Shown here: in pieces, positions 1 to 12,654 of the stretch | How the letters are laid out: every line of letters begins with the position of its first letter | How positions within the stretch are numbered: the first letter of the stretch is position 1 | IMG/VR virus record: IMGVR_UViG_3300025632_000095 | Coordinates: 1-21,961 of that record | Direction: 5' to 3' (one strand) | DNA from: a virus | DNA length: 21,961 bases | Notes under the pieces: model-generated | Told to the model about the DNA's origin: nothing | The model's input: only the letters and a program-made list of their open reading frames with translations | Databases searched by the model: none | Translations under genes and position numbers: made by a program

Positions 1-725
1 GCATCAGCAGATGTTGGATTTGGTGTAGCAGTATATCTTTGTTCTCTCTTAGGAGCTGCACTTGGCATATCTGTATATTGGTCAACCTGTACAGTCTTAA
101 TAACTTTACTAGATGTGACAGGACCATATAGATAAAACTTAGTAGTAAAATCTAAAGTATAAATGATAGCTCTTCTTTCTGCATAATCACCACGATAATT
201 ATCTTCATAGTTAATACTGTTTAATACAATAGGAATATCTCTCGCAATACCCATATCTTCCATGTCTTTAATTGTTAAAGTATAATCTGGTTGAAAATAT
301 GGTAATACTTGTTCTACTATTTGTAACGCATCATCTGATTGTTTTGCCATTGCAAATAATTGTATATTTAAATTATATGGAACAGGCATATATTGTGAAT
401 CCATTTTATTAGCATCACTTGCACTTGATTTTACTTTTTTAAATTTCTGTACACGATTTAATTTTCTTGCAGGGTCATATGTCAAGTCTTGTATTTCAAA
501 ACCTAATCTAGGTAATGTAAGTGCAACCTTACTGTCTAGTCCAGCATCTTGGTCAAGTCTTGTTAACCATTTTTGTTTTGGCCCATATGCCAAAGGCACT
601 TTCATGGATTGTGTAATCACACCACTATTGTTTTTACGAACCACATGTATATCATTAAATAGAGTACCAAACCCTACTATAATACTTCTAACTGTTTCGT
701 GATAAAATTGTCTATTTCCTAACAT
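1..725 (-). CDS. 15: gp15-like tail sheath stabiliser/tail completion protein (3' end cut by window)
   Basis: In T4, gp15 caps the tail tube and sheath and joins the finished tail to the head-neck; it acts in the virion. Here the reading frame is open from ATG at 725 to the window edge, about 241 residues. The start reads MLGNRQFYHETVRSIIVGFG, followed by LFNDIHVVRK and a PLAYGPKQKWLTRLDQ segment. A stretch with QIVEQVLPYFQPDYTLTIKD matches the T4 gp15 signature QIVEQILPYFQPHFN closely, and this is the strongest evidence. The start codon overlaps the stop of gene 14 (TAATG), so translation is probably coupled. T4 gp15 is about 270 residues, so only a short C-terminal piece is missing. Confidence 0.92.
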   Translation of the reverse strand, partial: MLGNRQFYHETVRSIIVGFGTLFNDIHVVRKNNSGVITQSMKVPLAYGPKQKWLTRLDQDAGLDSKVALTLPRLGFEIQDLTYDPARKLNRVQKFKKVKSSASDANKMDSQYMPVPYNLNIQLFAMAKQSDDALQIVEQVLPYFQPDYTLTIKDMEDMGIARDIPIVLNSINYEDNYRGDYAERRAIIYTLDFTTKFYLYGPVTSSKVIKTVQVDQYTDMPSAAPKREQRYTATPNPTSAD

Positions 726-1741
726 TATGCAAATACTCCAGCATCACCAAATGGATTAGATTCTGAGAAGTCTAATACATTATCATCTAGTGAATCAAAT
801 AATTCATTCTGTGCAGTTTTATCTTGCACATAATCCCCTACTATATAGTCTTCTGTTAATAGATATGAATCATCACCTGAATCAGCAGCATTCTCTAATA
901 GAATACTTGTACCTACTGATGTTTCATCATCTTCACCAATTATATTATCGCCATCAGTTTCTTCAAGTAGTAAACCAAAATTACTTCTTGCATGTTGTAT
1001 ATTTATTTCTTCATTCTGAGCTGTTGATTGTTCTAATGTAAATTCATAATCTCTTGTGTTTCTACTTTCAGTATCTTCTATAGAATCAATAGTTGTAATA
1101 CCTGTATCAAGAGCTTCAGATGAATATTCAAACTGTTTACAATTTAATTTATAAATTGGATTATTATCTAATTGATGAAAGGGTTCATCATGGTCTACAA
1201 AACTTATTTCAAATATCTTACCTAGTATGGGATGATAAACTAAATCACCCTCATAAGGTCTGTCTGTACTTACTGCATCTGTTTCTGTAAGTAAATAAAA
1301 ATCACTTCCTGTTGTTACAGTTTCTAAAACAGATGAATCACTTGTTTGGTCGATTGTACCAGATTCTAATAATATAGAACCACCTGTAGTATCTGTATCA
1401 CTTTCTATTTGTATTTGTTTTGTTAAATCTTGAAATCTTTCTTTGTGTACTACTAAGGTTAATTCGTTTCTATTTTCTAATCCGAATTGTGACATTAATT
1501 CTTTTTCGCCTTGATAACCACCCTCAGCATCTTCTACATACATTTCAATAGGAACTTGTGTAGTAAATTTACTAAGTGAATCTTCACCTAAAACATTATC
1601 AATGGCAACAGTTGTTCTGTCTATGTAATAAACATCATGACCAAAAATTTGTATTGCTTCTTTTACTAAGTCACTATACAGATTTTTTTCTGATGTAATA
1701 GCCGTACTATTATTTGTATGAAAGGCCTTGTTAACTGCCAT
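725..1741 (-). CDS. 14: gp14-like neck protein
   Basis: In T4, gp13 and gp14 form the head-neck complex that closes the filled capsid and receives the tail. Segments matching T4 gp14 are HDVYYIDR (residues 35-42), VLGEDSLSKFT (50-60), the GYQG/FGLENRNELTL region (75-96), and PYEGDLVYHPILGKIFEISF (162-181) followed by a PFHQL/NPIYKLN/FEYSSEAL stretch (187-211). The protein is 338 residues against 256 in T4. The extra length is mainly acidic, Ser/Thr-rich inserts carrying repeated short motifs such as SILLE, YLLTE and LLLEE, at about 115-160 and 255-300. The C-terminus ends SNPFGDAGVFA. An AAGG ribosome-binding site lies just before the ATG, and gene 13 ends four bases upstream, so it belongs to the 13-14-15 late operon. 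Confidence 0.93.
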   Translation of the reverse strand: MAVNKAFHTNNSTAITSEKNLYSDLVKEAIQIFGHDVYYIDRTTVAIDNVLGEDSLSKFTTQVPIEMYVEDAEGGYQGEKELMSQFGLENRNELTLVVHKERFQDLTKQIQIESDTDTTGGSILLESGTIDQTSDSSVLETVTTGSDFYLLTETDAVSTDRPYEGDLVYHPILGKIFEISFVDHDEPFHQLDNNPIYKLNCKQFEYSSEALDTGITTIDSIEDTESRNTRDYEFTLEQSTAQNEEINIQHARSNFGLLLEETDGDNIIGEDDETSVGTSILLENAADSGDDSYLLTEDYIVGDYVQDKTAQNELFDSLDDNVLDFSESNPFGDAGVFA

Positions 1742-1745
1742 AACC

Positions 1746-2558
1746 TTATCCTATCATGTAGTCTATAGGTGTTTCGAAAGATAATTGAATTTGTTCTTCT
1801 AGTCTTTGTATTTCTTCGATTGCTTGAGAATAAATTTGTTCACCATTCATTGTTACCCCACCTAAAGTTGCTACTCCGTTAAATTTAGAGAGGTTTGCTC
1901 CCCATTGTCTTTTGATTAATGCTGTTGCATATCTTTTTAAATAGATATCATCATAGATATCTGTATATGTATCTGGGTCTATTTTACGATAACATTCTAT
2001 AATTAAATATTCATCTGCTGTCATTTGTTCCCAATCCATATCTAAGTATAATCTATTTTGATGTTGATTAAAACGAATTGGAACTTCACCTACCAATACA
2101 TGAGATAGTAAATCTAATTGTTGCATTGTCATTTGATAATGAATTATAGATGTAGATGAAAAATCATACAAATCATTTAATCTTAATTGATAACGAATAT
2201 CAAACATATTTTGTTGTACAGCATTTGTAAAATCAAATATATTAGATACTGAAACTACAGCAGATGGCATAGGAATAAAATTATTGCCTTCTTCAAAACT
2301 TGCAGTTACAGAACTGTCTACTGTGTCTGTAGATGTTGTTGTAGTATTAGCACGAGCTCTTGTAATATCTGCTTCGGTAATCTTATATTTTAGATACATC
2401 TTTTCAATACCATCATAATGATACTGAGCAAAATATTGTAATGCCTCATCTATTCTGTCATCTGCTTGGTCATCTGATACATTAATATCAATGACGCCGA
2501 ATCCTAGAGCTCTAAGACAATATGATTTAAATGTTGATTTACTTGTTGGTATCGCCAT
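1746..2558 (-). CDS. 13: gp13-like neck protein
   Basis: This is the partner of gp14 in the T4-type neck, which completes the DNA-filled head. The 270-residue protein starts MAIPTSKSTFKSYCLRALGF, the start seen in marine T4-like gp13 proteins. It continues with a DDQADDRIDEALQYFAQYHYDG segment (about 24-45), the most characteristic part of the family. The YLIIECYRKIDPDTYTDIYDD region (about 184-205) and the Gln/Glu-rich end around EEIQRLEEQIQLSFETP also fit. A Thr/Ser-rich insert (about 71-86) is probably a surface loop. The ATG has an AGGAT ribosome-binding site about eight bases upstream and an exact late promoter 23-30 bases upstream, so it is the first gene of the 13-14-15 operon. Confidence 0.93.
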   Translation of the reverse strand: MAIPTSKSTFKSYCLRALGFGVIDINVSDDQADDRIDEALQYFAQYHYDGIEKMYLKYKITEADITRARANTTTTSTDTVDSSVTASFEEGNNFIPMPSAVVSVSNIFDFTNAVQQNMFDIRYQLRLNDLYDFSSTSIIHYQMTMQQLDLLSHVLVGEVPIRFNQHQNRLYLDMDWEQMTADEYLIIECYRKIDPDTYTDIYDDIYLKRYATALIKRQWGANLSKFNGVATLGGVTMNGEQIYSQAIEEIQRLEEQIQLSFETPIDYMIG

Positions 2559-2580
2559 ACTAATTATCCTGTTTTTCTAG

Positions 2581-2588
2581 TATTTATA
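2581..2588 (-). promoter_or_regulatory. T4-type late promoter for genes 13-14-15
   Basis: The minus strand reads TATAAATA, an exact match to the T4 late promoter element recognised by the gp55 sigma factor. It ends 22 bases before the gp13 ATG, with an AGGAT ribosome-binding site between. Four other exact copies in this window stand at similar distances (22-28 bases) from start codons. Confidence 0.85.
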
Positions 2589-2743
2589 ATAATACTCAAT
2601 CAACTATAATATTTTAAAAAATTGATTCCATATATACACCTTAAAGAGTTTTTAAGACTTTAAGTCATACAATCATATCAGAAAGATATAAAACTTTAAA
2701 TATTGGACATTAGACCCCTTTAAATGGGTGTGAGGGCATTTAG
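2589..2743. other. Intergenic gap between oxygenase I and the gene 13 promoter
   Basis: With the promoter and leader of gene 13 this is the longest non-coding stretch in the window (185 bases). It has no credible ORF. Two dyads are visible: CTTAAAG at 2640-2646 pairs with CTTTAAG at 2658-2664 across an 11-base loop, and ACCC at 2714-2717 pairs with GGGT at 2726-2729. Neither is followed by a T-run on the minus strand, so neither is a classic intrinsic terminator. The gap may hold an mRNA end or processing site after the oxygenase operon. Confidence 0.4.
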
Positions 2744-3256
2744 TTACTTAAATGTAAACACTAATACATATCTTCCACCAATTTTGGGGTAATAGTGATA
2801 ATGTTCTATTTTACCGAAAGATACTCCTCTATACTTTTTAGGAGCTATCTTAGTTTCATCTTTATTTAGTATTACTGTAAACGATTGTCTATCCATTGGT
2901 TGATTCAAATATACTATTAATTGACTATGTTCAAATTCATGGTCAACATGCACAGGTGATATATCTCTCACCCCATTACAAAAAGTAAAGTTTACACATA
3001 TCCTTAATACTTCACTATAACTTATATTGTTCTTATCACAAAACTCATCTAACATTTTTACAAAGATATCATGGTGTTCATGTTTCTCAGTAAAATCTTT
3101 CATTTCAGGTCTTGCCAAAACCACATGATTTAAAAAAGGTGTTTCATCATCTACAACAGATTCACCTTGCATGTAAAGAGGGAAGTGTCTAGTTAATATA
3201 TAACTTTCTATAAACTCTTTACTGTCACTTGATAAAAAATTGTCATCTATAATCAT
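2744..3256 (-). CDS. Oxygenase I: putative Fe(II)/2OG-dependent oxygenase (HxD type)
   Basis: This is the last of nine tandem oxygenase-like genes and encodes 170 residues. The double-stranded beta-helix signature is seen as H103-V-D105 in SPVHVDHEFEHSQLIVYLN, then a distal histidine (H152 or H154 in KIEHYHYYP) and R162 in GGRYVLVF, spaced as expected for 2-oxoglutarate binding. The spacing is prolyl-4-hydroxylase-like, but no substrate can be named. The N-terminus MIIDDNFLSSDSKEF is typical of phage 2OG enzymes, which often open with an (I/Y)IDDNFL-type strand. Its ATG overlaps the TGA of gene H (ATGA) and no ribosome-binding site is visible, so translation is probably coupled. It is shorter than most of the array, and lacks little apart from N-terminal helices. 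Confidence 0.75.
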   Translation of the reverse strand: MIIDDNFLSSDSKEFIESYILTRHFPLYMQGESVVDDETPFLNHVVLARPEMKDFTEKHEHHDIFVKMLDEFCDKNNISYSEVLRICVNFTFCNGVRDISPVHVDHEFEHSQLIVYLNQPMDRQSFTVILNKDETKIAPKKYRGVSFGKIEHYHYYPKIGGRYVLVFTFK

Positions 3257-3750
3257 ATGAATTTAATATTACCACTAACTACTTTTCTAACATTATCATT
3301 ATTAGGTCTAACCTCATGAGGAATACCACCTTTAAATATTACACATCTACCTTTTTTAGCAACAACATGAATTGGTTCTTCCATAACATAAGGATGGCCT
3401 GGGGTATAAAATGTAGTAGGTGATGAATCCTTAGTACAATCTATAAAATATATAAATGAATAGTCTGTAGGATTATGTACATGTACTTGGTGCCAATCAT
3501 GATTATCATATTTTTGCACCCATGTATGTAATAAGTCATAACGAGTTTTATTTAATCTCTCACATACACTATTAAATATATTTTCTAATTCCACATTCAC
3601 CAATTTATTAAACTCAGTGCTTGATTCATTAAAATTATTTAATTGTTCAAAATCTCTTTCTAATTTTATACTGTTAACATAATTGTTAAACTTATTACTC
3701 AGTTCTTTATCTTCAATAAATATAGTATGTGTAAAATTTAATTCTTTCAT
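3253..3750 (-). CDS. Oxygenase H: putative 2OG-oxygenase-fold protein (HxH type)
   Basis: The product has 165 residues. In place of HxD it carries H90-V-H92 in DWHQVHVHNPTDYSFIYFID, followed by GRCVIFKGGIPHEV (distal H145) and R155 in VRKVVSGNIKF. The HxH-P-x-S-x-YFI pattern plus the FPH-like distal motif resembles the 2OG-FeII_Oxy_5-like proteins common in marine phages. Those would bind metal with three histidines. The N-terminal 80 residues are helical and Asn/Glu-rich, without recognisable motifs. It overlaps gene G by ATGA at 3747-3750 and gene I at its end, with no clear ribosome-binding site. Substrate unknown. Confidence 0.68.
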   Translation of the reverse strand: MKELNFTHTIFIEDKELSNKFNNYVNSIKLERDFEQLNNFNESSTEFNKLVNVELENIFNSVCERLNKTRYDLLHTWVQKYDNHDWHQVHVHNPTDYSFIYFIDCTKDSSPTTFYTPGHPYVMEEPIHVVAKKGRCVIFKGGIPHEVRPNNDNVRKVVSGNIKFI

Positions 3751-4364
3751 TTTAAATGTAACTTAGTACACCATCTATCATCACCAATTTCACCTCGTAT
3801 CCATGTATTAAAAGATAATGTTATTCTTGTTTCATCATTCATATTAATTGGAGCCTGATGATAGACTGATGACGGAAATAATATCATTTGATTTTTTTCT
3901 GATTGCACATTTATTTGGTCTGTGTTAAATATGTTTCTTTCAGTATAATTTAAATCCCAATTTAATAAATTATCTCTTGCAAAAAATGTCGTTGTAAATA
4001 TATCACTACCATCAATGTAAAATACACCACTTATAAAACTATTAGAATGATTATGTCTAATGTGTGTTGTGTGCTTATCATTATAGTTAACCCACGAATT
4101 AGTCATGTATATTTCTATATTTTGATTTACTTTTAATACATTATAAGCAAACTCTCTAGTATGTTGCATAATATATTTTTTAAAATAATACTGTGATTTA
4201 TGTTCTAATACATAACAGTCTTTAGAATATAAAGTACAACCAGTAGTTTGATACAAGTCTTCATGATTTATTAAGAAGTTTTTTTCTTCCTCATTTAAAT
4301 TATAAGATTCTGTTATATTAACAACAGGTGTAGAAAATAATAAATTTAATTTAGAACTAGTCAT
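3747..4364 (-). CDS. Oxygenase G: putative 2OG-FeII_Oxy_5-like protein (HxH type)
   Basis: I place the start at ATG 4364, giving 205 residues. An upstream TTG at 4373 is possible, but AAAGG lies at the right distance for the ATG and the ATG sits just after the TGA of gene F. The core is NSWVNYN, then a THIRHNHSNSFISGVFYID segment with H104-N-H106, QMILFPSSVYHQAP with distal H169, and R180 in ETRITLSFNTW. This W-V-N...HxH...SGV(F/Y)Y...LFPS...H...R(I)S-F-N order is the hallmark of the 2OG-FeII_Oxy_5 (TIGR02466-like) family, and this is the clearest member of the four HxH proteins. The N-terminus, NLLFSTPVVNI, also fits that family. Substrate unknown. Confidence 0.8.
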   Translation of the reverse strand: MTSSKLNLLFSTPVVNITESYNLNEEEKNFLINHEDLYQTTGCTLYSKDCYVLEHKSQYYFKKYIMQHTREFAYNVLKVNQNIEIYMTNSWVNYNDKHTTHIRHNHSNSFISGVFYIDGSDIFTTTFFARDNLLNWDLNYTERNIFNTDQINVQSEKNQMILFPSSVYHQAPINMNDETRITLSFNTWIRGEIGDDRWCTKLHLK

Positions 4365-4369
4365 ACATG

Positions 4370-4999
4370 TCAACCTTTAAAAAAGAACACTTGATTTTTT
4401 CTATACTTTTTATTAAAATAAAAATCATTAGATATATCCATGCCATGAGGAAATTCTAAACCATCAAATAAAACTAATCTATTATATTTTGGTTTTATCT
4501 TCTTTAATACTTTATATTTGTTTTTTGGCCGCCACGGCATAAAGTGTTCGTTAAAATGTTTTTTATCATCTGAGGTATTTGATGAGTATAAATTAGTACC
4601 ACATTTATCATTAAAATAAATGATACCATTATATCCAGCATCTGTGTGTGGCCACCAAACACTATTTTTATAATCATTAAATATATTTTTATTAAATCTT
4701 GTCATGTTTGTAATAATATAGTAATCATCATCATATATTTTTTGTTTACATAAATTACTTAAAAATAAATATACCTCTTTTAGTCTTTTATCTTTTTTAA
4801 TTAATCTTCTATCAAAAAAATGACTACCATTAAATGATGGTTCTTCTGCACTTTTCCACAAAGGTGTGTGTTCATCAAAAATAAAATTATCTACTTTATC
4901 TGGGTGCTCGTAAAAATTATCAATGTAATATATGTTATGACCTTGAATACTTTCAGTCTTAATTTTTATATCAGAATTTATTTTAAATATATTAGTCAC
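4370..4999 (-). CDS. Oxygenase F: putative Fe(II)/2OG-dependent oxygenase (HxD type), GTG start
   Basis: The signature is H118-T-D120 in WWPHTDAGYNGIIYFND, GTNLYS, then NRLVLFDGLEFPHGM (distal H185) and R200 in YRKNQVFFF, ending at the C-terminus. The frame is open further upstream, but only by running through the C-terminal codons of gene E. I prefer GTG at 4999, which overlaps the gene E stop by eight bases. It gives 209 residues, in line with the 205-216 of most neighbours, and the protein then begins just before the GHNIYYIDNFYEHPD strand usual at the start of this type. A purine-rich GAGGGGG lies 12 bases upstream, a somewhat long spacing. The alternative ATG at 5038 gives 222 residues. 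Gene A has a related layout (G-I/V-IYL...GT-L). Confidence 0.75.
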   Translation of the reverse strand: MTNIFKINSDIKIKTESIQGHNIYYIDNFYEHPDKVDNFIFDEHTPLWKSAEEPSFNGSHFFDRRLIKKDKRLKEVYLFLSNLCKQKIYDDDYYIITNMTRFNKNIFNDYKNSVWWPHTDAGYNGIIYFNDKCGTNLYSSNTSDDKKHFNEHFMPWRPKNKYKVLKKIKPKYNRLVLFDGLEFPHGMDISNDFYFNKKYRKNQVFFFKG

Positions 5000-5666
5000 A
5001 GGTAATTCTTGCCCCCTCTGAATTAAACTCTTTATCATACTCTGGTAATTCAGTATAAGCAAAATTACCTGATACAGATATTCTTGTTGCTTTAGATTGG
5101 AAAGGAAATACCCAATGGCAAAGTCTTGTAGGGAATATAAAAAAATCACCTGCTTCAGGCATTACATTTACAGAATTAATACAATCTCTTTTACTTGCAA
5201 TTTCATTTGTACCCCAATTAAATGATAACGCTCCAGGTCCTAAACTTGAACCATTATATTTTTGATTTTCTTTTTTTATTACATTTGGAACATCAACAAA
5301 TAAAACAAAAGTAACATCACCATCATGAATATGGGGTGGATTAAAATCTCCAGCCGTCATGTGATTTACCCAAAGTTGTTGAGGTTTCAATGTTACTTTT
5401 GTTTTCCAACCATAAAAATCTATTCCTACTTCTGCCCAAGCATCAAAATAAGGTTCTACTGATTTGTAAAACCAAAGTCTATCTTTAGGATTAATTAAAT
5501 CTTGATGACCATTTGGAAATACACCAGCCAACTCACCACTCCAATCTTCATGACCTTTTGTTTTTTTACATATTTTTTTTAATTTAGTAATATCTTTTTT
5601 AGGATATTTAAAATGAAGTAAAAGAGGCCCCCACGCATAATTTATAAATTCTATATTATCTTTCAT
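4992..5666 (-). CDS. Oxygenase E: putative 2OG-oxygenase-fold protein (HxH type)
   Basis: The product has 224 residues. The core motifs are LWVNHMTAGDFNPPHIHDGD (H112-I-H114) followed by VTFVLFVDVP, then GDFFIFPTRLCHWVFPF (distal H184) and R195 in ATRISVSGNFAY. The W-V-N...PHxH...FP...LxH...RISVSGN order places it with the 2OG-FeII_Oxy_5-like proteins, with HxH in place of HxD. An aspartate follows H114 (HDGD), so an alternative ligand arrangement cannot be excluded. AAGGA lies seven bases before the ATG, a good ribosome-binding site. The start overlaps the end of gene D by 11 bases. A charged C-terminal tail of about 20 residues follows the core. Confidence 0.77.
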   Translation of the reverse strand: MKDNIEFINYAWGPLLLHFKYPKKDITKLKKICKKTKGHEDWSGELAGVFPNGHQDLINPKDRLWFYKSVEPYFDAWAEVGIDFYGWKTKVTLKPQQLWVNHMTAGDFNPPHIHDGDVTFVLFVDVPNVIKKENQKYNGSSLGPGALSFNWGTNEIASKRDCINSVNVMPEAGDFFIFPTRLCHWVFPFQSKATRISVSGNFAYTELPEYDKEFNSEGARITCD

Positions 5667-6276
5667 AATTTTTTCCTTTAAACCACTTAGGAAGACCTAA
5701 ATGTATTCTACCATCAAATTTGTTTATTTTATTTTTTTTATTTTGTATATTGTAATGTAAAAATACTTGTGAACAGTAGTTACCTTTAAATGGGTTTCTC
5801 CAATGTTCTAGTTCACAACCTGAATACAATAACATATCGCCAGGTTTTAATTTTACCTCAACATCTTTTCCTTTTTTATCTGTTAAATATATTGACCACA
5901 TATCACCACCCAGATTTAATGTTGTAGATACCTCACAACTTTTTCTATCTGTATGTTTCTCTAATGTATGTCCTTTTTTGTAAACTCTTGTGTATGCATA
6001 TGTTGGCCATAATTTTAAATTAGTTTCTTTTTCAACAAGTGGTAAACAATTTAATAGTAATGTTTCCATAGCAATATCTGCATATTGAGAATATGCATTC
6101 CAACATTGTCGGTCTTCTCTAGTTCCCCAATCATCTGAAAAGGGTATTATATATCTACTATCTTTTAATGTATCATGTACTTGTTCTTTTAATAAAATAT
6201 AGTTATTAACAAAATCAACAATATCTTTTGATACTGCCTTTCTTATAATTTTATATTTTTCTTTTTTAAATGTCAT
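5656..6276 (-). CDS. Oxygenase D: putative 2OG-Fe(II) oxygenase superfamily protein (HxD type, Arg replaced)
   Basis: This 206-residue protein belongs to a type I recognise from marine T4-like phages. Its motifs are PTYAYTRVYKKGHTLEKHTD (H108-T-D110), RKSCEVSTTLNLGGD, KPGDMLLYSGCELEHWRNPF (distal H158) and CSQVFLHYN. At the usual 2-oxoglutarate arginine position, about 12 residues past the distal histidine, there is Q170; relatives I recall also have QVFLHYN here, so this looks like a family trait rather than decay. Either R160 or another residue must hold the cosubstrate, or the enzyme is atypical. A basic tail of about 30 residues follows the core. The ATG overlaps the stop of gene C (ATGA). 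Confidence 0.82.
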   Translation of the reverse strand: MTFKKEKYKIIRKAVSKDIVDFVNNYILLKEQVHDTLKDSRYIIPFSDDWGTREDRQCWNAYSQYADIAMETLLLNCLPLVEKETNLKLWPTYAYTRVYKKGHTLEKHTDRKSCEVSTTLNLGGDMWSIYLTDKKGKDVEVKLKPGDMLLYSGCELEHWRNPFKGNYCSQVFLHYNIQNKKNKINKFDGRIHLGLPKWFKGKNYER

Positions 6277-6899
6277 ATTGCTTGTAAATTAAAATGTATA
6301 AATCTAAATGGTTCTATGCCAGGGTCTACTGCAAACTGATGTGGTAAGTAAGAATTAAATAACATTAAAGTGCCTGGTTTAGGTTTGTAATATATTTTAT
6401 TTGATGATAAAGTTACATCACCTATATTTGCTTCAGATAAATCTGTCATTACCTTACCAGGCCTAGGGTCTTCAAACATTGGATAAGATGTATTTTCAGA
6501 ACATTTTAAAAAGTAAAAACCAGACATGTGAGCATTTGAATGAACATGATATGATTGATGTCCACCACCTAATTTTGAAAACTCTTGAACCCAATAATCA
6601 TTTAGTTTTACTTTTTTTCTAGATAAGTCATACCCTTGTTGTATCAATATATCTCTAGACACACCAATTATAAAATCTGCTAAAACAGAAAAGTTATTAT
6701 CACCTATTAAAGTATAAGAACAATGTGAACCACCAAAATCTTTTTTACCACCTTTTAAATTTTCTTTTCTAACTTCTCTAATATATTTGTTAGAGTGTTT
6801 GTTTAAATCTTTTAACCATGATGGTATATATGCACTATAAACACCACTAGTAAAATAACTATCCATTCTAACTTCAAAATTATTATTATCTATTGCCAT
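6273..6899 (-). CDS. Oxygenase C: putative 2OG-FeII_Oxy_5-like protein (HxH type)
   Basis: The product has 208 residues. The core reads YWVQEFSKLGGGHQSYHVHS (H118-V-H120), HMSGFYFLKC, FEDPRPGK (142-149), then YYKPKPGTLMLFNSYLPHQF (distal H187) and R199 in EPFRFIHFNL, at the very end. The SG-(F/Y)-YFL and (F)EDPRPG motifs with a KPxPGTL-LF-S-LPH distal strand are characteristic of 2OG-FeII_Oxy_5 proteins. The function is presumably oxidation of an unknown substrate. An AGGT sequence five bases before the ATG may serve as ribosome-binding site. The start overlaps the end of gene B by 10 bases. Confidence 0.8.
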   Translation of the reverse strand: MAIDNNNFEVRMDSYFTSGVYSAYIPSWLKDLNKHSNKYIREVRKENLKGGKKDFGGSHCSYTLIGDNNFSVLADFIIGVSRDILIQQGYDLSRKKVKLNDYWVQEFSKLGGGHQSYHVHSNAHMSGFYFLKCSENTSYPMFEDPRPGKVMTDLSEANIGDVTLSSNKIYYKPKPGTLMLFNSYLPHQFAVDPGIEPFRFIHFNLQAI

Positions 6900-7540
6900 G
6901 GTTTACCTAACGACCAACAAACTAATGAGTTTCTTTCGCCCCTTGTTACTTTTTTAATTCTATGATATAAAAAACTAGGAAATATTACTATACTACCTCT
7001 TGGTTTAAATTCTTTACATATTCTCGTTACTTGTTTTTTATCTGGTCTACTATCTGGGAAACAAAACTCTAATTCACCACCACTGTATTTTTTAGGGTCT
7101 GTTAACTGTATTATACTTGATAACTTTCTAATCTTACCTACATAGTTTTTATTATATGTAGATAGGTTACTGTCTGGGTCTTTATCTTTGTCTTTGTATG
7201 GGCTACCCCAATCATCCCAATGCCAATTATAAAACTGTCCTTTTTTATAATGTGTAAACTGTGCTACCTCACTCCAATCCCATTGATAGTTCCAATTTGC
7301 ATTTTTATTTGCTATTTGAATATAAGGATTTAATATTTGATATATCCATGGCTCATCTATCCAATTTACATCAGAGTTTCTTTGATTAACTATGTCTTGA
7401 TATTTTTCTTTTGCATAAGTACCTAAACCTATTTTTGCTCTTACTTTTTCTCTTGTTGATTTTACATATTCAATAATATCATCACATTGCTTATCAGATA
7501 AAACAGAATCAAAATACCAATAATAGTTTTTTAAGTTCAT
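6890..7540 (-). CDS. Oxygenase B: PKHD/prolyl-4-hydroxylase-like 2OG-Fe(II) oxygenase (HxD type)
   Basis: The product has 216 residues. It has AQFTHYKKGQFYNWHWDD (H107-W-D109), SSIIQLTDPKKYSGGELEF (141-159), PRGSIVIFPSFLYHRI (distal H193), and R203 in GERNSLVCWSLGKPW. The Y-xx-GQFY-WHxD, SGGELEF, G-(S/A)-xx-(I/V)FPSFLxHRV and R-(S/N)-LV-W-GP order is that of PKHD-type hydroxylases (prolyl/lysyl hydroxylase-like). A Lys/Asp-rich loop (about 112-125) is inserted after the HxD. Of the nine, this is the best candidate for a protein hydroxylase. It has a strong ribosome-binding site (AGGTGA, six-base spacing) and an exact late promoter upstream, inside the end of gene A, so it heads an eight-gene transcript. 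Confidence 0.86.
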   Translation of the reverse strand: MNLKNYYWYFDSVLSDKQCDDIIEYVKSTREKVRAKIGLGTYAKEKYQDIVNQRNSDVNWIDEPWIYQILNPYIQIANKNANWNYQWDWSEVAQFTHYKKGQFYNWHWDDWGSPYKDKDKDPDSNLSTYNKNYVGKIRKLSSIIQLTDPKKYSGGELEFCFPDSRPDKKQVTRICKEFKPRGSIVIFPSFLYHRIKKVTRGERNSLVCWSLGKPWQ

Positions 7541-7557
7541 AACAAATCACCTGTAAA

Positions 7558-8178
7558 TTATATACAATTATTTATAACATATTTTTTATCTATATTTTCT
7601 GATTCCTCATCTTTAAATACAAATAATGTTTGAATAAATCTAGATTCAAGATTCATATCAAATCCTGCTTGATGAAAAGTATCGGCAGGATATAATATAC
7701 ATCTATTATATACTGAACCAACCTGTATGTCTTGTTCAAATTGTGGTGCAATATTATTTCTAGTAAATAGTCTAGTGCCTGAATCAAAAGAATATTTTTT
7801 ATCTAGATAAATTACACCAGCATAACTAAACTCACCACCATCATCATGAGCTACTCCTTTGCCATCTTTACACACACTTTTTAATAACTCATCTTTATAT
7901 ATTTTTCTAAAAAAAGTTCTGAATTTTTTAATGTCAGGTAATAAATTATTTTTTAATTTGTTAAATAAATTAGTATAGATAAGACTATTTTCGTTTACCT
8001 CATATGTTTCATGACAAGGATACGCTTGAAATCTACTTGAATAAAAATCTCTACCAAAGTGTGGTTGACAAGTAGGGGAAAATTCTAATTGATTTGTACG
8101 AGTGGATATCTCTTTAAATAAAGTATTTAATTCTTCATCAGTATAGAAATCATCAATTATTTCAATCGGTCTTTTCAT
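7558..8178 (-). CDS. Oxygenase A: putative Fe(II)/2OG-dependent oxygenase (HxD type)
   Basis: This is the first of the nine oxygenase-like genes and encodes 206 residues. The start MKRPIEIIDDFYTDEELNTL is a typical opening. The signature is H111-D-D113 in KGVAHDDGGEFSYAGVIYLD, then SGTRLFTR (133-140), NRCILYPADTFHQAGF (distal H169) and R180 in ESRFIQTLFVF. The layout is close to that of oxygenase F. No ribosome-binding site precedes the ATG, and a near-consensus late promoter (CATAAATA) lies only 10 bases upstream, so a transcript from it would have an extremely short leader. Read-through from the glycine-rich gene upstream is the other likely source of its mRNA. Its last codons contain the late promoter for gene B. 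Confidence 0.77.
   Translation of the reverse strand: MKRPIEIIDDFYTDEELNTLFKEISTRTNQLEFSPTCQPHFGRDFYSSRFQAYPCHETYEVNENSLIYTNLFNKLKNNLLPDIKKFRTFFRKIYKDELLKSVCKDGKGVAHDDGGEFSYAGVIYLDKKYSFDSGTRLFTRNNIAPQFEQDIQVGSVYNRCILYPADTFHQAGFDMNLESRFIQTLFVFKDEESENIDKKYVINNCI
7569..7576 (-). promoter_or_regulatory. T4-type late promoter for the oxygenase operon (genes B-I)
   Basis: The minus strand reads exactly TATAAATA, inside the last codons of gene A (coding Ile-Asn-Asn). It ends 28 bases before the gene B ATG, with AGGTGA between, which is the same geometry as the other late promoters here. It would drive eight oxygenase genes with few or no other signals before 2744. Confidence 0.75.
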
Positions 8179-8188
8179 AATATAATAT

Positions 8189-8196
8189 TATTTATG
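8189..8196 (-). promoter_or_regulatory. Possible degenerate late promoter before oxygenase A
   Basis: The minus strand reads CATAAATA, one mismatch from the late consensus, in the 20-base gap between the glycine-rich gene and gene A. It is only 10 bases from the gene A ATG, compared with 22-28 for the exact copies, which would leave a leader of about five bases. It may be a weak promoter or chance in AT-rich DNA. Confidence 0.35.
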
Positions 8197-8198
8197 TA

Positions 8199-9311
8199 TT
8201 AAGAATTAGGCCATGTGTCTGCAGCTCTAGCTTCTAATTGGTCAGTTAAATCAAATATACCAGAAGCACTAGCAGCTACACATATTGCTGGTTGTTTTAT
8301 TTTTACAAAACCAGAACCTCCAGCTGCACCACTAAAACCTTGACCTGTTAGAAATCCACTTCCACCAGCTCCACCAGCTCCACCACCTTTATTTGCAGCA
8401 CCAGCTTGAGCTCCAATCGTTCCATGATAGGCTCCACCTCTGCCACCGCCAGGGCCACAAGCAGGTTGTGTGTAACAGTTACCAAAAGCACCTCCAGAAC
8501 CGCAACGGCCTGGGCTACCACATGGGGTGTTTTGATATCCACCGCCGCCTCCACCACCACCGAATAATACGGTGCCAGTTAAAGGTGATGCTTTTCCTTT
8601 TCCACCATCACCAGTTTCACCATAAAGATTAGGGTTTGGGCCACCACCTTCAGGTGCTTGTGGACTTACAGGAGCACATTTATAACCTTGACCAATACCA
8701 TCTGTACCTGTACATGCTCCACCGCCACCACGACCAGAAGAATTATTTCCTTGTGGGCCACCTTTAGCACTTGGAGCAGGGGGTGTATTTCCTACATTAC
8801 CAGCAGTGCCTGGATTGTATCCACCACCAGCAGAACCACCTGGTCCACCATTTGCTAGTCTGTGTCCATATCCACCACCTGTTGCTGTGACATTACATAT
8901 ACCTGGGCCTGTAATACTAGAATCTCCACCTCGACCTGTACAACTATCTCCTGTTGATGCCGAACCACCAGCACCTACAGTAATTGTTAAATCTGTGCCA
9001 CCTGTTACAGGGAAACAAGCTTTAGTGAGTAATCCCCCACCACCACCGCCACCTGAGCCAGGGTGTTGTTGAGAACTTGAACAACAAGAACCACCACCAC
9101 CAGCAACAATTAAGTATTCTATTACTGTTGTTGCACAAGCTAGTGTTACTGTACCTGATGATGTAAATGTAGATACTACTTCATCTTCTGATGATGCTGC
9201 TTGAATTGTCGCACCACCTCTAGTAATTGAGGCAGGGTCTCTGTCAATAAATCTTTGACTAACCAAAGTTCCTACAAATCCACCTCTACCTTTTGAATAT
9301 CCTCTTGCCAT
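8199..9311 (-). CDS. Glycine- and cysteine-rich adhesin-like (tail fibre tip) protein
   Basis: The product has 370 residues. A short N-terminal part (MARGYSKGRGGFVG..., about 1-60) leads into TTVIEYLIVAGGGGSCC, the usual opening of the marine phage glycine-rich domain. About 260 residues of glycine-dominated sequence follow, with runs of up to eight glycines. It closes with GGSGFVKIKQP and a short tail, IFDLTDQLEARAADTWP, found at the end of other marine phage structural proteins. Polyglycine helix bundles form the receptor-binding tips of some T4-like phage adhesins, so a host-recognition role is likely but inferred. Unusually, there are 13 cysteines spread through the protein. The ATG overlaps the preceding stop (TAATG). 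Confidence 0.75.
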   Translation of the reverse strand: MARGYSKGRGGFVGTLVSQRFIDRDPASITRGGATIQAASSEDEVVSTFTSSGTVTLACATTVIEYLIVAGGGGSCCSSSQQHPGSGGGGGGGLLTKACFPVTGGTDLTITVGAGGSASTGDSCTGRGGDSSITGPGICNVTATGGGYGHRLANGGPGGSAGGGYNPGTAGNVGNTPPAPSAKGGPQGNNSSGRGGGGACTGTDGIGQGYKCAPVSPQAPEGGGPNPNLYGETGDGGKGKASPLTGTVLFGGGGGGGGYQNTPCGSPGRCGSGGAFGNCYTQPACGPGGGRGGAYHGTIGAQAGAANKGGGAGGAGGSGFLTGQGFSGAAGGSGFVKIKQPAICVAASASGIFDLTDQLEARAADTWPNS

Positions 9312-9847
9312 TAATATTTAACCCAATTATCTGTTGTATTATCCCAATAGTATTTATCACCATCCCAATCATCTGGTATTTCCAATCCCTTTGCTAAAAC
9401 ACTATATTGTTGCTCACCTATGGTAGTTTTAACATCTGATAAATTTTTACAAATCCATGTGTTTCTAGATGTATCCCATTCTGGTCTATGATACTTACCA
9501 TCTTCGGCAGCATCTTCTACACTTATTGTGTAATCAAAAGGAGCATTCCATTTGTTATTATCTGAATCAAATACCCAATTTGGATATGGGCATGGTGGAC
9601 TAAATCTATTGTTATCAGCATCCCAAGTACAACCTATGCCAGGAAATATACCTCTTTGAGTGGCATTGTATGAACATTGTTTCCAATAAGTACCACCAGT
9701 TACACTAGTGTTACCTAAAAGATTTCGTACAAACACTTCAGCATCAGAGGAATAGTCACCACCATTGGAATTTACATCATCATTAGAGATAACTACTACT
9801 CTTAATACTTTGTTGTCTGTGTTCTTAACTTCAGCAAAGTGCGCCAT
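9311..9847 (-). CDS. Conserved marine phage structural-region protein of unknown function
   Basis: The product has 178 residues. The start MAHFAEVKNTDNKVLRVVVI and the later GGTYWKQCSYN, GIGCTWDADNNRFSPPCPYP-NWVF and D-x-W-...-KYYWD pieces match a protein type common in marine T4-like phages and encoded near fibre genes. The repeated (W/Y)-x-x-D-xx-(T/N)-xxW elements suggest small aromatic beta repeats. Its role is not known; a virion or fibre-associated protein fits the neighbourhood. It has four cysteines where I would not expect them, as in the adjacent glycine-rich protein. A strong AGGAGT ribosome-binding site lies eight bases before the ATG. Confidence 0.75.
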   Translation of the reverse strand: MAHFAEVKNTDNKVLRVVVISNDDVNSNGGDYSSDAEVFVRNLLGNTSVTGGTYWKQCSYNATQRGIFPGIGCTWDADNNRFSPPCPYPNWVFDSDNNKWNAPFDYTISVEDAAEDGKYHRPEWDTSRNTWICKNLSDVKTTIGEQQYSVLAKGLEIPDDWDGDKYYWDNTTDNWVKY

Positions 9848-9862
9848 AAGATATTACTCCTA

Positions 9863-10255
9863 TTAAGCATCATCCATTATATCAAATGATACAAACAAAT
9901 CTAAATCACTGGCTGCGTTTGCGCCACCTTTTAGAATATCACCTTCCATTAAATATATGGGTGTATCTAAAACCACTAGTGTAGAATCTGCTGGAACTGA
10001 AACAGTTTTTGCAATATAAACAGTGGCATCAGCACCTGTAGTAGTTACACCTGTTGAACCCGAACCCATACCATCTACAAACAAGTCTAATGTTGCAGCA
10101 TTGGTGCCATCAACATTTGCACAAGTAATTCTATTAATTTTTACAAGTTTATCGGATGCAACTGTAATTAGTGTGGCAGTTGCTGTAGCAGTCAAGTTAA
10201 ATCCAGCATTTGCACCAAGTACAGAAGATACATTTATTAAATTTGGATTTGCCAT
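9863..10255 (-). CDS. Small beta-rich virion structural protein, function unknown
   Basis: The product has 130 residues, starting MANPNLINVSSVLGANAGFN. It is rich in Thr, Ala, Val and Asp, with alternating patterns (LVKINRITCANV, AATLDLFVDG, PADSTLVVLDTPIYLMEGD) that suggest one compact beta-sandwich domain. There are no signal peptide, membrane segment or catalytic motifs. Proteins of this length and style occur among structural genes of marine phages, so a decoration, fibre-base or fibre-cap role is plausible but not shown. It has its own exact late promoter and a good GAGGAAAT ribosome-binding site, and heads a short transcript with 9311-9847 and 8199-9311. Confidence 0.7.
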   Translation of the reverse strand: MANPNLINVSSVLGANAGFNLTATATATLITVASDKLVKINRITCANVDGTNAATLDLFVDGMGSGSTGVTTTGADATVYIAKTVSVPADSTLVVLDTPIYLMEGDILKGGANAASDLDLFVSFDIMDDA

Positions 10256-10282
10256 TTTATATTTCCTCTATAAGTTTCCTTT

Positions 10283-10290
10283 TATTTATA
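10283..10290 (-). promoter_or_regulatory. T4-type late promoter for the 9863-10255 gene and the adhesin module
   Basis: An exact TATAAATA on the minus strand, ending 27 bases before the ATG at 10255, with a GAGGAAAT ribosome-binding site between. It lies in the short gap after the repetitive fibre gene. Confidence 0.85.
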
Positions 10291-10296
10291 ATTGTT

Positions 10297-12654
10297 TTAA
10301 TTACCAAATATCATAGCTAAAGTTATTACTTTTCCTACTGATACTCCGAATCCATTTGCAGTACCACTATTAGTTATAGTCGCACCCGAATCTACTGTTA
10401 GTGTCGAACCTGATAAGACATTAAAATTATTGGCAGTAAATCTAAAGTCATCTGCACCAGCAATACGAATATCAATCGTATCATCTGTATCAGCAGTGAT
10501 ACTTGTATCAGCATCTGCATCTAAAATTAATTCTTTACCATTTAAATCCATACCATTATTTGGTAATAACTTACCAGCATCAGAACCATCTATTGTTAAG
10601 AATGTTGTATCAGCAGAACCATCTGTTCCTTTAAAGATAATATCTGAATCATTTGCTGTAGCATCTATTGTAATGTTACCAGAAGATGTTGATATAACAA
10701 CTTCAGCATCACCGACACTTAAATTATCACAAGCAAGGTCACTCACACTAGCTGCAGCAAAAGTTAATGCTCCATTACCATCTGTTTTTAAGAAGTGCCC
10801 ATTTGAACCATCAGTTGCTGTAAGTGAATATGCAGTACCACCTGATGTTAGAAATAAATTACTTCCGTCAGAAGATACTGATTCGTTAGCATCATGTAAT
10901 TGTAATGTTGGTGTTCCACCTGAGTCTGTTAATAGTAAACCTGTGTTGTGTACATGAGTTAAAGCTATCTCATCATTAGCACCAAAAGATAGTATCGCAC
11001 CATCATGTTGTAATTCTAAATCTTGTGTTAAAGTAATGTCACCATCTGAACCTATTGTAATAGCATCTACATCTGAAGCAGAACCAATAGTCTTCCCATC
11101 ACCTATGATTATATCATCAGTAAAGGTTGCAATACCTGTCACGCCTAAAGTTCCAGACACAGTAGCATTACCTACCACTTCAATGAGTGTAGCAGTTAAT
11201 TCTATTTCATCTGTAGCTGCAATATCAAGAACAGTTGCACTTGCACCTTGTATAAATTGACTAGCATCATTAAACATTAGTTTATTTGTTGAGTTAAGTG
11301 TTAGTCCACTACCATCTGTATGTGTTAATATTGTATCTTGGTCATTACCAAATTGAATTGTACCACCATCTGCAAGGAATAAATCTGACCATTCTAGAGA
11401 TGCAGAACCTAATGCTTGTCCATCTGCACTTGTTGGGGTATTTGCACTAGCAGTTACGAATGATAATGTTCCACTACCATCTGTTTTTATAACTTGACCA
11501 GCAGTACCATCTGCATTTGGAAAATTAAATGCAACACTATTAGATGTTAATATTAATTTACTACCATCAGAAGATAATGATTCGCCTGCATCATGTAATT
11601 GTAATGTTGGACTTCCACCTGAATCTGTTAATAATAATCCTGTGTTATGTACATGTGTTAATGCAATCTCATCATTAGCACCAAAAGATAATATAGCACC
11701 GTCATGCTGTAATTCTAAATCTTGTGTTAATGTTATATCACCATCTGAACCTATTGCAATGGCATCTGTATCTGAAGCAGAACCTATATTACCAGCATCT
11801 GGTATGATTAGATTACCACTTAGAGTAGTAACCTGTGATGCATTAAATGTAGCAGCTGTACTTCCACCAGTTGCAATCGTAATTACATCTGAACCTGAGA
11901 ATGTGATTGAACTATCTGTATCACCATCTCCAGCAATACTATCTAATTGTAAACTACCAACATTAGTAAAGTTTGAATCACTTAGGTCAAGTGTTCCTGT
12001 AACATCTAAATTACCACCTACTGATAAATTACCAGACACTTCTGCTCTACCTACTATGTCAATAAGTGTTGCAGTTAATTCTATTTCATCTGTTGCAGCT
12101 ATATCTAATACTGTTGCACTAGCACCTTGTATAAATTGACTAGCATCATTGAACATCAATTTGTTTGTTGAGTTAAGTGTTAGTCCACTACCATCTGTGT
12201 GTGTTAGTGTTGTGTCATCATCAGCACCAAAAGATAATATAGCACCGTCATGTTGTAATTCTAAATCTTGTGTTAGTGTTATATCACCATCAGCTCCGAT
12301 TGCAATTGCATTTGTATCAGATGCAGAACCTATAGTACCAGCATCTGGTATTGTAATATTTCCACCAGAGGTATGCACTGTACCTGTTTCATTTGGGAAT
12401 GTAATTGTTCTGTCAGCAGTAGGGTCTACAACTGTTAATGTGGTTTCAAAACCATCATCTGTGGCACCTTCGAATACGATAGTACCATCTTCTTTTACAT
12501 TTAATGTTGTAGCATTTGTTGTTGTAGTATTAAGGGTTGTATAAGAAATACTACCGCCTTCAATAGCAGTCACATCTGTAACTAAATTATTAAATTGTGT
12601 TCTTAACTCATTTAGAGTACTTGAACTTGCTATACTTGATGCCGATATTGCCAT
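10297..12654 (-). CDS. Repetitive tail-fibre-like structural protein
   Basis: The product has 785 residues. The N-terminal 30 residues (MAISASSIASSSTLNELRTQ..., ending TDVTAIEGG) form a short helical region typical of marine phage fibre-like proteins. The rest is low-complexity, Asp/Gly/Ser/Thr-rich beta repeats such as IGSASDTDAIAIGSDGDITL and LTQDLELQHDGAILSFGA. These resemble trimeric fibre shafts with repeated 'gold-standard' phage motifs such as LEVTGNLSVGGNLDVTG. Large internal duplications are visible (see repeat entries). The end, GKVITLAMIFGN, shows no S74-type chaperone domain. An exact late promoter and an AGGAAAA ribosome-binding site precede the ATG. It probably takes part in host attachment, but which fibre it forms cannot be told. 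Confidence 0.8.
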   Translation of the reverse strand: MAISASSIASSSTLNELRTQFNNLVTDVTAIEGGSISYTTLNTTTTNATTLNVKEDGTIVFEGATDDGFETTLTVVDPTADRTITFPNETGTVHTSGGNITIPDAGTIGSASDTNAIAIGADGDITLTQDLELQHDGAILSFGADDDTTLTHTDGSGLTLNSTNKLMFNDASQFIQGASATVLDIAATDEIELTATLIDIVGRAEVSGNLSVGGNLDVTGTLDLSDSNFTNVGSLQLDSIAGDGDTDSSITFSGSDVITIATGGSTAATFNASQVTTLSGNLIIPDAGNIGSASDTDAIAIGSDGDITLTQDLELQHDGAILSFGANDEIALTHVHNTGLLLTDSGGSPTLQLHDAGESLSSDGSKLILTSNSVAFNFPNADGTAGQVIKTDGSGTLSFVTASANTPTSADGQALGSASLEWSDLFLADGGTIQFGNDQDTILTHTDGSGLTLNSTNKLMFNDASQFIQGASATVLDIAATDEIELTATLIEVVGNATVSGTLGVTGIATFTDDIIIGDGKTIGSASDVDAITIGSDGDITLTQDLELQHDGAILSFGANDEIALTHVHNTGLLLTDSGGTPTLQLHDANESVSSDGSNLFLTSGGTAYSLTATDGSNGHFLKTDGNGALTFAAASVSDLACDNLSVGDAEVVISTSSGNITIDATANDSDIIFKGTDGSADTTFLTIDGSDAGKLLPNNGMDLNGKELILDADADTSITADTDDTIDIRIAGADDFRFTANNFNVLSGSTLTVDSGATITNSGTANGFGVSVGKVITLAMIFGN
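10861..11109 (-). repeat. Long repeat B, second copy, inside the fibre gene
   Basis: It encodes fibre residues 516-598 and closely matches 11560-11808 (residues 283-365) at both DNA and protein level. Shared segments include GSDGDITLTQDLELQHDGAI and the following LSFGANDEIALTHVHNTGLL. A few amino acids differ, for example SPTLQLHDAGES against TPTLQLHDANES. Confidence 0.85.
11179..11334 (-). repeat. Long repeat A, second copy, inside the fibre gene
   Basis: It encodes residues 441-492. Residues 444-491 are identical to residues 151-198 encoded at 12058-12213, 48 residues in all, beginning THTDGSGLTLNSTNKLMFND. DNA identity is also high, with scattered third-position changes. Confidence 0.85.
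11560..11808 (-). repeat. Long repeat B, first copy, inside the fibre gene
   Basis: It encodes residues 283-365 and is the partner of 10861-11109. A shorter third copy covering only the first half lies at 12220-12351 (residues 102-145). Confidence 0.85.
12058..12213 (-). repeat. Long repeat A, first copy, inside the fibre gene
   Basis: It encodes residues 148-199 and is the partner of 11179-11334, with a 48-residue identical core. Repeats A and B alternate (partial B, A, B, A, B), so the gene looks as if it grew by duplication of a composite unit. Confidence 0.85.
12220..12351 (-). repeat. Partial third copy of repeat B inside the fibre gene
   Basis: It encodes residues 102-145 and shares the IGSASDT-AIAIG-DGDITL and LTQDLELQHDGAILSFGA segments with both full copies. 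It diverges after that point and runs straight into repeat A. Confidence 0.8.

Follow-up and report, generated by a model that had tools for sequence, protein, structure and literature searches.

Genes for Fe(II)/2-oxoglutarate (2OG) oxygenases are frequent among the 'auxiliary' genes of marine phages, and no paper identifying a substrate for them was found in the openly accessible literature. The S-SCSM1 genome carries 24 of them (PMC9602691), and a role in 2OG or carbon-nitrogen metabolism has been proposed for cyanophages (PMC3037559, PMC9602691). Fe(II) oxygenases also occur among the genes of metaviromic islands, where they are classed with host recognition (PMC3909814), and marine phage proteins of PHROG 61 have been noted as PHD-like in the Phold paper (PMC12774648). 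Such genes may stand in rows. In the T4-like cyanophage S-RSM4 (SRSM4_132-142), a gene-by-gene check finds nine 2OG genes in an eleven-gene stretch that ends two genes before gp13, and profiles find nine in the tail-fibre region of S-SM1 (SSM1_051-061). The pelagimyophages HTVC008M and Mosig EXVC030M have five and six consecutive 2OG genes, respectively, and in all four phages the row belongs to the tail-fibre region.

In this report, we analyzed a virus record of IMG/VR (IMGVR_UViG_3300025632_000095), whose whole length of 21,961 bases is referred to as the window. Nine consecutive genes on its minus strand, from position 8178 down to 2744 and designated here g1 to g9, had been predicted to encode 2OG-oxygenase folds. 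Our main finding is that all nine do encode Fe(II)/2OG oxygenase-fold proteins (g1 and g6 very probably), their catalysis being predicted: the nine open reading frames (ORFs) lie at the coordinates given below, and Pfam, structure models and profile comparison agree. The row is not of a new kind, as similar rows, mostly shorter, occur commonly in marine phages. What is new here is the misnaming of several of its families, the linkage of such rows to a glycine-rich (Gly-rich) gene on their 5' side, the halogenase gene that some of them enclose, a late promoter before g2, and a trio, g2-g3-g4, that resembles one of podophages.

The rows of S-RSM4 and S-SM1 resemble that of the window in containing PHROG 61, 81, 274, 2297 and 2954 and in being placed after a Gly-rich gene. 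Unlike it, they are interrupted by two small or unrelated genes, whereas the nine genes of the window are unbroken and differ in order and membership. One interrupter in S-RSM4, SRSM4_134 (L092:11185-11886, phrog_33749; L numbers are our labels for the sequences compared), encodes 233 aa with weak 4Fe-4S ferredoxin-like matches. HTVC008M and Mosig share with the window an array directly before gp13, with gp13 proteins 59-67% identical; in HTVC008M the array is on the opposite strand to that of the window, and in Mosig the six genes are followed by heme oxygenase and bilin reductase genes before gp13. The latter two (L084:12729-13965; Pfam 73.7 bits for the heme oxygenase, 64 bits for the ferredoxin-dependent bilin reductase) are odd for a phage with a SAR11 host.

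Rows were counted with iterated profiles of the nine families, with cross-checks by Pfam (in S-RSM4 and Mosig) and by PHROG (in S-RSM4). Uninterrupted runs of four to seven genes were frequent in the fetched viral contigs, and nine were found only in the window and in the near-identical contigs L004 and L095. That so long a row is out of the ordinary, as the original prediction supposed, is largely contradicted by the nine genes of S-RSM4 and S-SM1 and by the commonness of runs of five to seven; what stands is that an unbroken nine is the maximum of the survey. The site beside gp13 is variable, since of 17 contigs that bear gp13 and extend 6 kb or more upstream, 10 carry any such gene and four carry three or more. 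At the DNA level, the array had no match among isolate phages. One contig, L101 (positions 1-11439; near-identical L102 and L105), interleaves 11 2OG-family and three halogenase genes on both strands within 11.4 kb.

Fold and metal ligands of the nine proteins

Four proteins score above the Pfam cut-off (27 bits, as stated for g2 and g8). g2 (6890..7540; 216 aa; PiuC/PKHD-like; HxD 107/109, H193, R203) matches 2OG-FeII_Oxy_3 with 47.5 bits, and also PHROG 61. The other three match 2OG-FeII_Oxy_5: g3 (6273..6899; 208 aa; HxH 118/120, H187, R199) with 52.6 bits, g5 (4992..5666; 224 aa; HxH 112/114, H184, R195) with 51.4 bits and g7 (3747..4373; 208 aa; HxH 107/109, H172, R183) with 63.4 bits; g3 and g7 are in addition over the cut-off of NCBIfam TIGR02466. 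With 25.8 bits, g8 (3253..3750; 165 aa; HxH 90/92, H145, R155) is 1.2 bits under the cut-off for the same Pfam family, and it matches PHROG 81, a 2OG oxygenase family, with an E value of 4.6e-23.

No 2OG Pfam match was obtained for g4 (5656..6276; 206 aa; phrog_2954; invariant H108, D110, H158 and R160) or g9 (2744..3256; 170 aa; phrog_274; HxD 103/105, H152, R163). These two, the most doubtful of the nine, were modelled with AlphaFold (AF2), with 19 aligned relatives for g4 and 24 for g9, and both models are confident double-stranded beta-helices (pLDDT 87.4 for g4 and 91.7 for g9), the fold on which the original prediction had staked its case. Compared with the PDB by Foldseek, the g4 model is best matched by the prolyl-4-hydroxylase of P. 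putida (E 3.9e-10), and the g9 model retrieves, as its best matches, the PHD of Dictyostelium (E 4.5e-7) and the human PHD2 (E 1.4e-6).

As for g1 (7558..8178; 206 aa; phrog_1644-like; HxD 111/113, H169, R180) and g6 (4370..4999; 209 aa; phrog_1644; HxD 118/120, H185, R200), a PDB sequence search with their family profile found nothing. In hhalign, this nine-member profile aligned with the g9 family at a probability of 96% (E 4.5e-9) with the HxD invariant, and blastp matched g1 to g7 with an E value of 4e-7. The start of g6 was set at GTG 4999, which overlaps g5, instead of at the mechanical ORF start 5149. We consider g2, g3, g4, g5, g7, g8 and g9 to be established, at the fold or family level, as members of the 2OG oxygenase superfamily; judged from sequence comparison, the same fold is very probable for g1 and g6.

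The original prediction had been built on a metal-ligand motif, and the residues are indeed present: all nine proteins have a distal His and a proximal HxD (g1, g2, g4, g6 and g9, which thereby carry the 2-His-1-carboxylate triad) or HxH (g3, g5, g7 and g8), and in eight an Arg, the putative 2OG ligand, follows 10-15 residues past the distal His, g4 having an invariant Arg at +2 instead. As a proof by itself the motif is weak, and it was discarded in that role as too permissive: composition shuffles reproduce it in 2-30% of sequences, depending on the protein, so that independent support is needed. The motif occurs in none of the 10 other window proteins tested. Searched against the PDB, the g7 profile retrieves 3bvc (E 7e-24) and 2rg4 (E 3e-23), and because 3bvc, a solved relative, aligns with the same HxH, this variant appears to be a feature of the family and not a sign of decay. 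H107, H109 and H172 are invariant in the g7 family alignment, as are H108, D110 and H158 among the relatives of g4.

Recent tandem duplication was ruled out as a source of the row, similarity by blastp among the nine proteins being scant or nil (at best 32% over 87 aa). Ratios of nonsynonymous to synonymous substitution (dN/dS) of 0.09-0.51 across 11 homologous pairs show that the array genes are under constraint.

Family names and a shared trio

Several of these families carry other names in PHROG: phrog_2954 (g4) is called 'ferrochelatase', phrog_274 (g9) 'DNA endonuclease V', phrog_1644 (g1 and g6) 'minor coat protein' and phrog_2297 'DNA endonuclease'. Ferrochelatase was rejected for g4, which has no ferrochelatase Pfam match at E<=5 and whose PDB matches listed are 2OG-type oxygenases. 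T4 endonuclease V (DenV), an all-helical protein, was likewise rejected for g9, which has no Pfam match and a mostly beta, prolyl hydroxylase-like model. The phrog_2297 member of S-RSM4 scores 37.2 bits against 2OG-FeII_Oxy_3. All four are 2OG-fold families under other names, and their misnaming hides 2OG rows in marine phages. A seasonal enrichment of phrog2954 'ferrochelatase' has been reported (PMC11561400), as has a ferrochelatase that always adjoins a 2OG oxygenase (PMC9599517); the neighbours of the latter report and the enriched genes of the former are probably two members of one array. The fold evidence indicates that the published 'ferrochelatase' and 2OG oxygenase genes are of one enzyme superfamily, arranged in arrays. 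The same names recur in a second cluster of HTVC008M, near the baseplate hub (L177:24214-28897). A 2OG oxygenase gene is accompanied there by one gene labelled 'minor coat protein' and two labelled 'DNA endonuclease V', all of them 2OG-type according to our analysis or to annotation; the cluster continues with a methyltransferase and then an outer membrane porin gene.

Three of the genes have their nearer relatives in another phage family. Pelagipodophages of the HTVC023P type carry the trio of g2, g3 and g4, ordered as in the window, at 44-59% identity and adjoining structural genes, on a podophage backbone unrelated to that of the window. Identity to HTVC008M or Mosig is 35-44%, and g3 is not found there. 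Because the trio is closer to the podophages than to these two phages, the comparison indicates that it has probably moved between phage families.

Gene context and late promoters

The window has a G+C content of 24-44% per kb and nearly all its genes on the minus strand, in the order gp8 (baseplate wedge), a 2121-aa tail protein, fibre proteins, small tail proteins, the Gly-rich protein, the nine-gene array, gp13 and gp14. The array is thus flanked as first described, by adhesin and fibre genes on one side and neck genes on the other. Its 3' boundary is gp13 (1746..2558, minus strand; neck or head-tail adaptor Ad2; phrog_211), the product of which is 67% identical to that of Pelagibacter phage HTVC008M and 64% to that of Methylophilales phage Melnitz; on this basis, the window appears to be a fragment of a Kyanoviridae-like pelagimyophage (T4-like, marine), whose hosts are probably SAR11 bacteria. 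On the 5' side lie, both on the minus strand, the gene for the adhesin-like Gly-rich protein (8199..9311; Gly_rich_2, Pfam PF21722, 46 bits), a candidate substrate of 370 aa with a Gly content of 28%, and that for a small Trp/Asp/Asn-rich, phrog_7759-like protein (9311..9847), a candidate substrate or adhesin partner. The 2121-aa tail or baseplate protein is encoded by one ORF (13593-19958) that takes up the 6.4 kb from gp8 to the fibre genes.

From the Gly-rich gene through g1 to g9 to gp13, the successive gaps are +20, +17, -10, -4, -11, -8, -4, -4, -4 and +185 bases; each junction from g2 to g9 is an overlap of 4-11 bases, and the sole large gap follows g9. The minus strand of the window carries five copies of the T4-type late promoter TATAAATA, and the plus strand none. 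Each copy is followed by a gene start at a distance of 20-35 nt, the genes being gp8, 10297-12654, 9863-10255, g2 and gp13; when the core ATAAATA was tested against 20,000 random position sets, not one set gave as many as five. The copy at 7569..7576 (minus strand) precedes the ATG of g2 by 28 nt, and that at 2581..2588 (minus strand), before gp13, is within the 185-bp gap after g9, while only an imperfect CATAAATA is present near the start of g1. Since all five copies precede genes, g2 and gp13 included, g2 to g9 look like a late unit flanked by two late promoters.

Candidate substrates of the enzymes

The interpretation that we favor, at a probability of roughly 0.42, is that a late cassette post-translationally oxidises adhesin proteins of the virion; the activity, the substrate and the adhesin concerned are all inferred. 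That the row is an enzymatic 2OG cassette in the adhesin and tail region agrees with the original prediction, and the oxidation of virion proteins, also proposed there, gains circumstantially from the late promoter and from the 5' Gly-rich linkage. When halogenases are counted as run members and two thresholds are used, 19 of the 27 dereplicated runs have a Gly-rich gene no more than two genes away on their 5' side, against 7.4 expected, with a simulated P of <2e-5 that is optimistic in that the runs are mutually related; on the 3' side there is none (0/32). A stricter version counted 13 of 25 runs with such a gene within three genes, missing the one beside the window's own array type. The architecture, with the Gly-rich gene 5' of the array, is common to pelagimyophages, cyanophages and podophages. 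A flavin (tryptophan-type) halogenase gene is found inside several runs (L131, L134 and L136), that of L134 (6645-8120) scoring 355 bits in Pfam. PrnA-like halogenases in or beside arrays are at L134:6645-8120, L131:3774-5249, L136:2419-3888, L145:6047-7519 and L112:9152-10633.

Under adhesin oxidation, the nine diverged Fe(II)/2OG-fold enzymes would form a translationally coupled, late-transcribed part of a host-recognition module. Their targets would be the Gly-rich protein (8199-9311), the small phrog_7759-like protein (9311-9847) or both, produced at the same time and place, and each enzyme would hydroxylate particular side chains of the receptor-binding tip ahead of assembly. Where relatives also encode a flavin halogenase, it would add halogen to particular side chains of the tip, and different arrays beside different adhesins would be swapped together. 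Such tailoring of the tip fits the late timing, the adjacency of the adhesin, the prolyl hydroxylase-like fold, the many diverged enzymes, the halogenase present in some arrays, and the earlier assignment of Fe(II) oxygenases of metaviromic islands to the host-recognition group (PMC3909814). No paper proposing the modification of adhesins was found in the openly accessible literature.

Besides the relatedness of the runs, several observations weigh against this interpretation. With a late promoter of its own, g2 could be transcribed separately from the adhesin gene. In the cyanophages S-CAM8, P-RSM4 and S-SSM5, the run adjoins a NolO-like gene and does not directly follow the Gly-rich gene, and HTVC008M has extra 2OG genes far from adhesins, by a NolO-like carbamoyltransferase, curli genes and the baseplate hub. 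A phrog_7759-like gene is present in Bellamy, Greip and phiPsal1 without an adjacent annotated oxygenase; it was for this reason dropped as an array marker, and is best seen as a non-diagnostic tail component. Most fold neighbours of the g4 and g9 models are hydroxylases of prolines in proteins, the closest being P. putida P4H for g4 and Dictyostelium PHD and human PHD2 for g9. Identity to them is ~11-18%, g4 has no Arg at the usual +8 to +15, and small-molecule 2OG enzymes also score well with the g4 model; the resemblance is one of predicted fold and leaves the substrate unfixed. NolO-like carbamoyltransferase genes stand beside 2OG genes at L160:5178-6788, L162:5158-6822 and L163:5157-6821 in cyanophages and at L177:1306-2751 in HTVC008M.

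Adhesin linkage would be accounted for about as well, or nearly so, if the enzymes modified the host envelope or surface glycans (for example by hydroxylation of lipid A or sugars), to block superinfection or to change the receptor, because cassette and adhesin would then co-vary in tracking the same receptor. The NolO-like carbamoyltransferases in or near runs and the outer membrane porin gene of HTVC008M favor this explanation, as does the precedent of LpxO and KdoO, 2OG enzymes that act on lipid A and Kdo. None of the nine proteins, however, matches the LpxO or KdoO family in Pfam and NCBIfam scans, and among the window's genes none was identified as coding for a glycosyltransferase or a lipid enzyme. 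Moreover, superinfection exclusion is usually early, whereas the array is of the late-promoter class, and the strictly 5' placement of the adhesin is left unexplained; overall, we consider action on the envelope, the strongest of the alternatives, rather unlikely.

Late expression with virion genes would also be unexpected of auxiliary metabolic genes that steer host carbon/nitrogen metabolism by using 2OG or by oxidizing small molecules, as would nine diverged, non-redundant enzymes and linkage to an adhesin; a single enzyme would be enough to drain 2OG. This role has already been proposed in print (PMC3037559, PMC9602691), but appears quite improbable for the row described here. It is conceivable that some members are non-catalytic double-stranded beta-helix scaffolds, serving as virion components or adhesin chaperones: HxH replaces HxD in four of the nine, g4 has no Arg at the usual position, and g1 and g6 bear the PHROG name 'minor coat protein'. 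We hold this to be improbable, as metal-ligand positions are kept within the g7 and g4 families and HxH is common to solved relatives. The virion proteome of S-SCSM1, in which 13 detected proteins have no assigned function, names no 2OG protein among its non-structural proteins.

To return to the oxidation of adhesins, a broader version of it, which we put forward tentatively and which is on balance doubtful, is that several marine phage families share a transferable 'adhesin-tailoring' cassette, in which up to ~10 2OG oxygenases, joined in some cases by a flavin halogenase, decorate a Gly-rich receptor-binding protein while the virion is assembled. The 5' Gly-rich linkage and the halogenase of some arrays lead to a concrete substrate hypothesis, which would suggest where to seek the natural substrate of phage flavin halogenases. 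If it is true, the tail tip would be diversified by chemistry, in the manner of the enzymes that tailor ribosomally synthesized and post-translationally modified peptides (RiPPs).

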